DNA of 64,000 nucleotides from Exiguobacterium profundum (lineage in GTDB: Bacteria; Bacillota; Bacilli; Exiguobacteriales; Exiguobacteriaceae), in assembly GCF_001909285.1 (NCBI RefSeq), contig NZ_MRSV01000001.1, positions 2,374,556-2,438,555 of the forward strand, given 5' to 3'. The notes under the pieces are model-generated. The model worked only from the letters and a program-made list of their open reading frames with translations, was not told where the DNA came from and made no database searches. A program made the position numbers and the translations under genes. Shown one piece after another: positions 27,068-44,024 of this stretch (position 1 is its first letter; each line of letters begins with the position of its first letter).

Positions 27068-29719
27068 TTACTTACGCAACTCTTCCAAACGGGCGCGGAC
27101 CGCGTCACGCTTGTCGAGGTAGTCTTTTTCTTTTGCTTTCTCTTCGTCGATGACGTGAGCCGGCGCCTTGGCGATGAAGCCTTGGTTTCCGAGTTTCTTC
27201 TGCACGCGCTCGACTTCTTTCTCATACTTCGCCACTTCTTTTTCAAGACGAGCGATTTCTTCTTCGAAGTTGATGAGGTCTGCGAGCGGGATGAAGAGCT
27301 CCGCTCCCGTCATGATCGCGGACATCGACTTGTCCGGAGCCGTGAGACCACGTCCGATCTCAAGCTCTGTCGCATTCGTGAACTTGCCGATCGTCATTTC
27401 GTTCGCGCTCAAGTAACCTTGTGTCGCATCATCACTCGTCGAGATGAAGAGCTGGATCGGTTTCGACATCGGTGCGTTCACTTCGGCACGGATGTTACGA
27501 ACCGAGCGGATGACGTTCATCACAGCTTCAAACGTTGGAACCGAGTCTGCGAAATGAAGATCGTCACGACGCGTCGGGTAGCTTGCACGAACGATTGAAT
27601 CGCCTTCGTGCGGCAAGTGTTGCCAAATTTCTTCTGTGAGGAACGGCATGAACGGGTGCATGAGACGCATGATCGAATCGAGCGTATGCGCGAGGACCGA
27701 ACGTGTCGTGTGCTTCGCCGCTTCATCCTCACCATAGAGCGTGAGTTTCGCCATCTCGATGTACCAGTTACAGAACTCTTCCCAGATGAAGTTGTACAAG
27801 TAACGACCAGCTTCACCGAACTCGTACTTGTCGACGAGGCGTGTCACTTGGTCAATCGTGTCGTTCAAGCGTGTCAAGATCCACTTATCGGCAAGCGTCT
27901 TCTCGCCCGTGAGGTCGATGTCTTCGACTTTGAGCCCATCCATGTTCATGAGCGCGAAACGACTTGCGTTCCAAATCTTGTTCGCAAAGTTCCATGTCGA
28001 CTCGATCTTCTCCCAATAGAAACGAAGGTCGTTCCCTGGTGTCGAACCTGTGAGGAGGAACCAACGGAGTGAATCCGCTCCGTATTGGTCGATAACTTCC
28101 ATCGGGTCAACGCCGTTACCGAGAGATTTCGACATCTTGCGTCCTTCCGAGTCACGGATGAGACCGTGGATGAGGACATCGTTGAACGGTTGCTTCCCTG
28201 TGAACTCGAGTGATTGGAAGATCATACGCGATACCCAGAAGAAGATGATGTCGTATCCCGTGACGAGCGCGCTCGTCGGGAAGTAACGGTTGAAGTCCGG
28301 TGCGTCCGTATCCGGCCAGCCCATCGTTGAGAACGGCCAGAGTGCTGACGAGAACCATGTGTCAAGAACGTCTTCGTCTTGTGTCCAGTTCTCACTGTCC
28401 GCTGGCGCCTCTTTCCCTACATATACTTCACCTGTCTCGTTATGGTACCAAGCCGGGATGCGGTGGCCCCACCAAAGTTGGCGGCTGATACACCAGTCGC
28501 GGATGTTCTCCATCCAACGGAGGTATGTGCCTTCGAAGCGCTCTGGGACGAAGTTGACTTTCGTATCGTCGTTCCCTTGTGCTTCAAGTGCTGCTTTCGA
28601 GAGTGGCTCCATATCAACAAACCATTGTTTCGAAAGATATGGTTCGATGACCGCGCCAGAACGTTCCGAATGACCTACCGAGTGCGTGTGCGGCTCAATC
28701 TTCACGAGTGTGCCGTCCGCCTCAAGGTCTTTGACGAGTTGCTTGCGGCATTCGAAGCGGTCGAGCCCTTCGTACTTACCAGCATTCTCGTTCATCTTCC
28801 CGCCTTCATCCATGACGAGGATGCGTGGAAGCTCGTGGCGGTTTCCGATTTCAAAGTCGTTCGGGTCGTGTGCTGGCGTGATCTTCACGCAACCTGTACC
28901 GAACTCCATGTCGACATAGTCGTCGGCAACGATCGGGATTTCACGGTTCATGACTGGAAGCATGATCGTCTTGCCGATGAGGTGTGTGTAACGCTCATCT
29001 TTCGGGTTGACGGCAACCGCCGTATCACCGAGCATCGTCTCGGGACGTGTCGTCGCGATCTCGATGTGACCCGAACCGTCAGCGAGTGGGTATTTCATGT
29101 GATAGAATGCACCCTCGACTTCTTGGTAAATGACCTCGATATCTGAAACGGCCGTCTTTTGAGCCGGGTCCCAGTTGACGATGTATTCGCCACGGTAAAT
29201 CAAGCCTTTTTCATAAAGACGGACGAATACTTCTTGAACGGCTTTTGAGAGCCCTTCGTCGAGTGTGAAGCGCTCACGCGAGTAGTCGAGACCGAGACCA
29301 AGTTTTGACCATTGGTCGCGAATCGTCTTCGCGTACTCGTCTTTCCATTCCCACGTCTTCTCGAGGAACTTTTCACGTCCGAGGTCGTAACGCATGACGC
29401 CTTCTTCACGGAGCTTTTGCTCGACTTTCGCTTGTGTCGCAATCCCGGCGTGGTCCATCCCTGGGAGCCAGAGCACGTCATAGCCTTGCATACGCTTGAG
29501 GCGTGTCAATAAATCTTGGAGCGTCGTATCCCAGGCGTGACCGAGGTGAAGTTTCCCGGTAACGTTCGGTGGTGGGATGACAATCGTGTACGGTTGTTTC
29601 GAATCGTCCTCGTCTGCTTTAAATACATCGTTCTCTAACCAGTAGTCGTACCATTTTGACTCCGTCGCACTTGGGTCGTACTTCGTCGGCATGGTGATTT
29701 CATTTGTCTCATGGGCCAT
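27068..29719 (-). CDS. valS: Valyl-tRNA synthetase
   Basis: The 883-residue class I synthetase charges tRNA-Val. It has the HIGH motif in [15 protein letters not shown], the editing domain ([18 protein letters not shown]), the KMSKS motif in [19 protein letters not shown], the anticodon-binding region with [13 protein letters not shown] and the C-terminal coiled-coil arm (about residues 815-880). The start is ATG 29719 (MAHETNE) with GAGGAGG at spacing 8; the in-frame extension upstream runs into the T-box terminator. It is controlled by the T-box leader just upstream. Confidence 0.97.
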
Positions 29720-29749
29720 GTGTAGCGCCTCCTCTATGTTATTGGTGAA

Positions 29750-30005
29750 CACAAAAACGGCTTCTCTCGTCCTATACGCTAAGGACGAAAGAAGCCGTGA
29801 TCTTCCGCGGTACCACCTTAGTTCGCCAAAAAGTGGCGCACTCAAAATCGAATAACGGTCGATGGACCGAACTTTCCTACTCCATTCAGAAAGTCAGCTC
29901 CGAGGCGACTTCCGCGTCCATCCCTCGCAACCTTTCACCAAGCGGTCGCGTCTCTAAAAGGAATGGAGGATGCGTACTACTCCTCATCAATGCTTTTCAT
30001 CGTAT
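29750..30005 (-). promoter_or_regulatory. T-box leader of valS, GUC specifier
   Basis: The antiterminator T-box AAGGTGGTACCGCGG lies at 29806-29820. It is followed by a terminator with 15-bp arms (CGGCTTCTTTCGTCC to GGACGAGAGAAGCCG, about 29758-29797) and a T run. Stem I starts GATGAGGAGTAGTACGC near 29990 and closes with GCGGAAGTCGCCTC; the triplet GTC at 29907-29909, in the usual GAA-NNN-purine context, is a valine codon and so the likely specifier. Uncharged tRNA-Val(GAC) would favour readthrough into valS. Confidence 0.93.
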
Positions 30006-43582: not shown

Positions 43583-43616
43583 GAAAAAAGAGACGTTCTC
43601 CGTAGAGAGCGTCTCT
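43583..43616 (-). terminator. Terminator of the tRNA-Arg gene
   Basis: A 7-bp stem AGAGACG / CGTCTCT (43589-43595 with 43610-43616) followed by a T run on the minus strand, 14 bases downstream of the tRNA. Confidence 0.85.
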
Positions 43617-43629
43617 ATTTTAATGGAAG

Positions 43630-43983
43630 CGTCCCAAGAGGGATTCGAACCCCCGACCGACGGCTTAGCTTACCACCATGACTTTCGTCACCAACATCGT
43701 GTTGTTTGTAGTCTGGACTATATCTTCACCGTTTCAGGTGCGACACGTGTAGTCTCTACGGAACCTCACGAGCATGATGCTCCTCCATTGATTCTACCTC
43801 TACATGCATAGACATTCGAATCAACTCGACCCAATCGGGAATGAGTTTCCTCGGTATTACCATCAGCATCATCTGTTAAGGCTTCACCGATATAGTGTCG
43901 TCCACTTTATAGGTTTCTGTTTCCCTATAAAGGCTCCTATTTGTCTTGAAGGCCGTTGCTCTATCCTGCTGAGCTATTGGGAC
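43630..43983 (-). tRNA. tRNA-Arg(UCU), interrupted by a group I intron
   Basis: The two exons (43949-43983, 35 nt; 43630-43668, 39 nt) join to a 74-nt cloverleaf. Acceptor arms GTCCCAA and TTGGGAC pair; D arm GCTC-AGCAGGATA-GAGC; anticodon arm ACGGC-CTTCTAA-GCCGT with anticodon UCU; T arm GGGGG-TTCGAAT-CCCTC; discriminator G. CCA is not encoded. The break falls between anticodon bases U34 and C35, so the tRNA is unusable without splicing. A sigma-A promoter lies 13 bases upstream and a terminator downstream. UCU reads AGA/AGG, so the gene may be essential if it is the only copy. Confidence 0.93.
43669..43948 (-). ncRNA. Group I self-splicing intron, 280 nt, no ORF
   Basis: The intron core is readable. 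P2: CTTTATAGG/CCTATAAAG (43924-43932 with 43905-43913). P3: CGACAC (43895-43900) with GTGTCG (43741-43746). P7: GACTA (43750-43754), in the R-like element GTAGAGACTACACG, with TAGTC (43716-43720), in the S-like element AAGATATAGTCC. P8: CACC/GGTG (43737-43740 with 43727-43730). P9-like hairpins: CAACA-CGA-TGTTG and GAC-GAAA-GTC. The 5' exon ends in U and the intron ends in G, as group I splicing requires; a P1 can form between GGCCUU and the downstream GGAGCC with one bulge. No homing endonuclease fits in 280 nt. Confidence 0.9.
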
Positions 43984-43995
43984 ATTGACATGAAA

Positions 43996-44024
43996 ACTAT
44001 AATAGAAAAATGGTTTCCTGTCAA
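43996..44024 (-). promoter_or_regulatory. Promoter of the tRNA-Arg gene
   Basis: Perfect TTGACA (44019-44024), 17-base spacer, TATAGT (43996-44001), placing transcription start a few bases before the tRNA 5' end. A strong constitutive promoter. Confidence 0.9.

Follow-up and report, generated by a model that had tools for sequence, protein, structure and literature searches.

The 280 nucleotides from position 43948 to position 43669 on the minus strand of the window, the 64-kb stretch of DNA that was analysed, are almost certainly a group I intron lodged within the anticodon of a tRNA-Arg(UCU) gene and belonging to a family that is found at the same site in other Bacilli and was or is mobile through a homing endonuclease gene (HEG) coded in P6; the copy in the window has no ORF. 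The observation of an intron-split tRNA-Arg(UCU), made in a preliminary description from the letters of the window, is confirmed, and its group I reading is backed by precise empty sites in relatives, a conserved core and covariation.

The tRNA-Arg(UCU) gene and its boundaries

ARAGORN made no tRNA call in the window at its default setting, which allows no introns, and a single one when introns were allowed, namely a tRNA-Arg(tct) with an intron of 280 nt. The gene runs from 43983 to 43629 on the minus strand and its spliced length is 75 nt. The coordinates first proposed, 43630-43983, were thus right to one base, and the spliced product, expected at 74 nt, is a complete tRNA-Arg of 75 nt with the discriminator G73. 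The joined exons form a complete cloverleaf with the anticodon UCU, and the intronless alleles of relatives are also called tRNA-Arg(tct). There is a C at both ends of the insert, which leaves a one-base ambiguity in the boundary; because the intron of a Cytophagales relative (L102) begins with T, the junction was set between U34 and C35, where the preliminary description had placed the break. The size that it gave for the insert agrees with both ARAGORN and the empty sites, and, as it had stated, no ORF was found that could be assigned to the 280-nt insert. The features of the gene and its surroundings are as follows.

43996 to 44024, minus strand: sigma-A-like promoter, TTGACA-N17-TATAGT, 11 of 12 consensus positions (consensus match only)
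43949 to 43983, minus strand: 5′ exon of tRNA-Arg(UCU), G1 to U34 (ARAGORN with introns allowed; equal to the intronless alleles L017 and L018)
43669 to 43948, minus strand: group I intron, 280 nt, ORF-less, between U34 and C35, with its terminal omega-G at 43669 (RF00028, empty sites, covariation)
43629 to 43668, minus strand: 3′ exon, C35 to the discriminator G73 at 43629 (ARAGORN; intronless alleles)
43589 to 43616, minus strand: hairpin 3′ of the tRNA with a 12-bp stem, a possible intrinsic terminator (predicted on the plus strand only; the minus-strand reading is ours)

Given the promoter-like motif, which ends 12 bases upstream of the tRNA, and the hairpin downstream, the gene resembles a one-gene transcription unit. 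Elsewhere in the window, an ordinary T-box leader (RF00230, 134.6 bits) lies at 29778-29999 on the minus strand, immediately before an ORF (27068-29845) resembling a valyl-tRNA synthetase.

Core structure and covariation

The insert aligns with model positions 1-253 of RF00028, scoring 31.9 bits (E 2.4e-6) where the curated cut-off is 50 bits; the match is full-length, and the score falls, technically, on the side that the preliminary description had named as speaking against a group I intron. Covariation in relatives outweighs this sub-cut-off score and identifies the insert as a group I intron. Its elements are given below with the pairs that show changes on both sides among 27 diverged introns (from Bacilli, a Cytophagales MAG, a viral contig and a huge phage), as counted with our own script without shuffles, many of these counts resting on one or a few diverged sequences.

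43934 to 43951, minus strand: P1, exon C32-U33-U34 and the first intron C (43951-43948) with GGAG (43937-43934); U34-G wobble at the splice site
43937 to 43939, minus strand: internal guide UAG, with a proposed P10 to C35-U36-A37 (43668-43666), inferred from sequence
43905 to 43932, minus strand: P2 hairpin, 9 bp; double changes in 9/9 pairs
43741 to 43900, minus strand: P3 (43900-43895 with 43746-43741), enclosing P4-P6; 100% paired, double changes in 5/6 pairs
43851 to 43890, minus strand: P4 (43890-43886 with 43855-43851), P5 and P5a; P4 100% paired, double changes in 2/5 pairs
43760 to 43850, minus strand: P6 with a structured peripheral extension (43841-43769); co-varying helices in 13 Exiguobacterium introns
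43716 to 43754, minus strand: P7, GACTA (43754-43750) with TAGTC (43720-43716), guanosine-binding and crossing P3; 100% paired, double changes in 2/5 pairs
43740 to 43727, minus strand: P8; 100% paired, double changes in 1/4 pairs
43672 to 43712, minus strand: P9 with hairpins P9a and P9b (GAAA loop); P9b double changes in 4/4 pairs

In the 13 Exiguobacterium introns, the hand-built P1-P9 structure is paired in 99.7% of cells, a figure that falls to 33-44% in a slid control, and 10 pairs are changed on both sides, compared with 6.2 in shuffles. Nearly all of these ten lie in P6 and its extension, while P3, P4 and P7 show no variation within the genus and are therefore tested by the wider set only. 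In that set, the P3-P8 and P4-P6 domains, with the P3/P7 pseudoknot, are supported by covariation and 100% paired in the 27 sequences. P3 (CGACAC/GTGTCG) and P7 are exactly those first described, and the P2, P8 and P9 hairpins of that account are paired and co-varying, P9 by way of P9b.

The C-G, U-A and U-G pairs of P1 are conserved in 27/27 sequences. The U that ends the 5′ exon and the G that ends the intron, both noted in the preliminary description, are likewise borne out: the splice-site U-G pair is present in 27/27, and G is the last intron base, a terminal G that our extraction script imposed on bounds that also fit the exon stems and mostly the intron lengths given by ARAGORN. The U-A and A-U pairs of the proposed P10 are kept in about 91% of the 27 introns. 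The guide, UAGGAG, has its partners in the anticodon loop, at C32-A37 of the exons, and not in the anticodon stem, so that its target is a part of the tRNA hardly able to change. Among clades, position 30 of the stem varies and the guide stays the same, and recognition therefore rests on the loop.

Occupied and empty sites in Exiguobacterium

The preliminary description proposed a search of related genomes for alleles with and without the intron, and both occur within the genus. Of 18 other genus genomes, 14 have an insert in tRNA-Arg(UCU) and four (G001, G008, G011 and G017) are intronless, with a precise empty site in which the flanks abut at 95-100% identity to the window; the window exons equal those of G001 and G008 base for base. 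In the sister genus, all 18 genomes searched are intronless at this gene, again with a precise empty site. A tree of the flanking DNA requires five changes in intron presence, at least four of them forced by well-supported branches. One gain and four losses in the genus would be the simplest reading, and regain by homing may also have contributed.

A family at the same site in Bacilli and its homing endonuclease

The window intron is not peculiar to this genome but a member of a same-site family in Bacilli with HEG-bearing members. An exact 22-base pattern from J3/4-P4-P5, searched in some 85,000 named species genomes, found 37 loci, 35 of them in tRNA-Arg(UCU) at the same insertion site: 10 in Exiguobacterium, 24 in other Bacilli (Neobacillus, Priestia, Pullulanibacillus, Shimazuella, Thermoactinomyces and Paenactinomyces among them) and one in a Cytophagales MAG. 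Two of the 35 (L117 and L127) reach the end of the available stretch, and the script test covered their 5′ halves. The other two pattern loci (L099 and L103) are not tRNA introns; L099, from a Levyibacteriota MAG (JAUSEW010000021.1), shares the P4/P5 motif within a group I-like core, and ARAGORN recognises no tRNA around it. In an even sample of the class, blastn matched the intron in 32/399 genomes, one of which (G099) has no more than a weak partial match, and in 13/145 genera; there was no match in plasmids. In all, the family occupies this insertion site in about 15 genera of Bacilli. A class-wide RF00028 scan was set aside as a measure of this spread because none of the 30 loci read was an intron-split tRNA for ARAGORN and the stricter filters lose the family. 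ARAGORN intron calls of tRNA-Ser(gct) and tRNA-SeC were artefacts, being tRNA-Arg(UCU) with shifted bounds.

Other elements were seen in the course of this survey. One genome (G167, L065/L075) has tandem intron-split tRNA-Arg copies, one of them with an intron of 1173 nt whose HEG is interrupted by a further element, and in another (G071, L066/L073) HEG pieces with a similar interrupting element are found some 12 kb away from the main tRNA-Arg intron. Another group I intron-like element, distinct from this family (L047, G002:C4:690340-690701), is of a type that scores about 75-88 bits with RF00028 in many genomes of both Exiguobacterium genera and is not an intron-split tRNA for ARAGORN where read.

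The family extends to viruses. In an uncultured 484-kb phage assembly (LR756508.1, 9714-14776; L152), two tRNAs contain group I-like introns after U34, of 175 nt in tRNA-Arg(UCU) and 193 nt in tRNA-Lys(UUU); as RF00028 calls neither of them, they rest on their alignment to the Bacilli family. A viral contig (L135, IMGVR_UViG_3300034197_000017) has an intron-split tRNA-Arg(UCU) with an intact PD-(D/E)XK HEG, and a second, distant member of the same PHROG (phrog_5018) about 1 kb downstream.

In Exiguobacterium sp. s124 (G016; loci L016 and L101) the intron measures 632 nt and contains in P6 an ORF of 137 codons that matches Pfam PDDEXK_5 (PF11645, E 1.6e-36), the final codons of which, REVP and the stop, extend into P6 and J6/7. 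The P6 extension of the window intron, which has no intact homing endonuclease ORF, occupies the site of this HEG. The HEG is intact at L016/L101, L111, L128, L064/L104 and L135, the hosts being Exiguobacterium sp. s124, Paenactinomyces, Priestia abyssalis, Bacillus sp. FJAT-14578 and the viral contig, and degraded in Pullulanibacillus, Terrilactibacillus, Shimazuella, Thermoactinomyces and Thermoflavimicrobium. In seven sequences the residues of the motif D...QxK (D38, Q51 and K53) are invariant. A profile of seven homologues matched only 2OST, I-Ssp6803I, in the PDB (E 9e-5, 25.7 bits). The HEG is shown to be under purifying selection, with dN/dS of 0.08-0.37 among intact copies, single values being rough given the high dS of several pairs. 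Its putative activity would be to cut the tRNA-Arg(UCU) gene.

The Bacilli family was or is mobile, on this evidence, probably by means of the P6-coded PD-(D/E)XK nuclease, and the window copy would be an ORF-less member retained for splicing. The ORF-less state with its P6 extension may instead be ancestral in Exiguobacterium, the HEG having entered P6 later in the lineage of s124. We regard this with some doubt but take it seriously, given that no HEG remnant was found in the ORF-less Exiguobacterium introns examined, that their P6 extension is structured and co-varying, and that free-standing HEGs exist. Against it, the intact HEGs are all at the same place in P6, and their graded decay in Thermoactinomyces, Shimazuella, Terrilactibacillus and Pullulanibacillus represents loss elsewhere in the family.

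Predicted splicing of the intron

We infer that the window intron is removed by splicing. Guanosine would bind in P7 and the bond after U34, at the U-G wobble of P1, would be cut; P10 would then align C35-U36-A37 on the guide, and the usual two transesterifications would join the exons into a 75-nt tRNA and release the intron with its terminal G. Several group I introns require the help of proteins, CYT-18 and others (PMC3984707), and this one may likewise be a real intron that needs a host protein in the cell and splices weakly as naked RNA. This we consider unlikely: despite short P1 and P10 helices, the intron has well-formed P2, P3-P8 and P9, and its relatives in the huge phage measure only 175 and 193 nt. 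In addition, the bacterial tRNA introns that others have tested self-splice.

Endonucleases beside tRNA-Arg(UCU) in phages

The closest phage homologues of the HEG, in Acinetobacter phage Herod and Synechococcus phage Sf-FR1, are free-standing and lie about 22 and about 68 nt, respectively, downstream of an intact tRNA-Arg(UCU). With the HEG alignment as query, and thus blind to tRNAs, a search through viral contigs found 39 loci, which form 18 clusters at 90% identity. In 13 of the 18, an intact tRNA-Arg(UCU) lies within 100 nt of the HEG, upstream in some clusters and downstream in others, and the other neighbouring tRNAs differ; in one further cluster (L215, on the same contig as L135) the HEG is inside a tRNA-Arg(UCU) intron. 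Several ARAGORN calls that spanned viral HEGs were discarded, as they seem to pair the halves of two real tRNAs. Among Bacilli, one genome (G168, L067) has a broken HEG directly after an intact tRNA-Arg(UCU).

These arrangements lead us to lean, by a little, towards a HEG lineage specialised on the anticodon region of tRNA-Arg(UCU), which would be found free beside the tRNA in phages and, in Bacilli and at least one viral contig, within its intron. HEGs are frequent in phage tRNA arrays, and a single near-identical cluster accounts for 17 of the 39 viral loci, so the association could also reflect shared ancestry of tRNA arrays and not targeting. We think this improbable, since the tRNA keeps its proximity in most clusters on either side of the HEG and among varied neighbours, and since the same HEG lineage is found inside tRNA-Arg(UCU) in Bacilli.

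AGA decoding in intron-bearing species

The long ORFs of the window contain 57 AGA and 10 AGG codons in 14,920, and AGA is therefore in use. In a pattern search, with matches from G000, G004 and G007 and one from G010 checked by ARAGORN, no second UCU tRNA was recognised in any intron-bearing congener, genomes that have N-masked stretches near tRNA arrays, and one was found in each intronless congener. Because of this masking, the genome-wide tRNA inventory is incomplete and lacks several isoacceptors. For a congener, E. sibiricum, tRNA sequencing is on record (PMC11354880). The preliminary description suggested that decoding could depend on the ribozyme; with no second UCU tRNA recognised in these partly masked genomes, we consider it likely that AGA decoding depends on splicing of the intron. 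It is very hard to believe that the insert is a dead relic in a pseudogene, with AGA read by a further UCU tRNA hidden in masked stretches, as 13 species share an unchanged core and show compensatory changes in the periphery, the exons are intact in every species compared and equal to intronless alleles, and the tRNA counts of intronless and intron-bearing congeners point the other way.

Relation to known systems

Group I introns are known in cyanobacterial tRNA-Leu(UAA), in tRNA-fMet and in tRNAs of alpha- and betaproteobacteria (PMC4033280, PMC8450103). Compared by description, these likewise sit in the anticodon loop of bacterial tRNA genes, but in other tRNAs and another phylum than that of Exiguobacterium. 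In Beggiatoa BOGUAY and Thiomargarita nelsonii, tRNA-Arg(TCT) has been noted to carry a putative group I intron (PMC4853749); by description, the same tRNA is interrupted, but in Gammaproteobacteria. Thus tRNA-Arg(UCU) as a group I host is not a first. The preliminary description knew of no case in Exiguobacterium tRNA-Arg(UCU), and for that gene in Exiguobacterium or other Bacilli we also found no report in the open-licence literature. The family at this site in Bacilli is apparently undescribed so far.

The HEG of the relatives and I-Ssp6803I, from the tRNA-fMet intron of Synechocystis, share PF11645, an aligned D...QxK and coding within a tRNA intron. The relationship is remote by profile, however, and the HEG described here is tied to tRNA-Arg(UCU) and also free-standing in phages; the window intron itself, unlike that of Synechocystis, has no HEG. 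Free-standing HEGs that cut at intron insertion sites are known from the cyanophage psbA and Bacillus phage cases, in which an intronless HEG likewise lies beside a gene that bears an intron elsewhere. In the phages with tRNA-Arg(UCU), by contrast with psbA, the gene is a tRNA, the nuclease is of the PD-(D/E)XK type and cleavage is putative. According to a 2014 review, the phage group I introns known at that time were all in protein genes (PMC3984707), and the intron-split tRNAs of the viral contig and the huge-phage assembly would be exceptions to this.

Implications

The gene escapes common annotation tools, given that default tRNA finding fails and the Rfam score is under the cut-off. Carrier species probably need the ribozyme to make their AGA-reading tRNA. 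Since intron-plus, HEG-plus, HEG-decaying and empty alleles are all present, three of these states in one genus, the life cycle of a homing intron can be traced here, and it sits in an apparently essential tRNA. More than the window element, the interesting part is the same-site family with its nuclease in two states. The phage nucleases beside tRNA-Arg(UCU) make the origin of the endonuclease of mobile introns directly testable, and, if the two-state reading is true, they would document in nature how a ribozyme and a nuclease with a shared target come together as a mobile group I intron, with phages as possible carriers.
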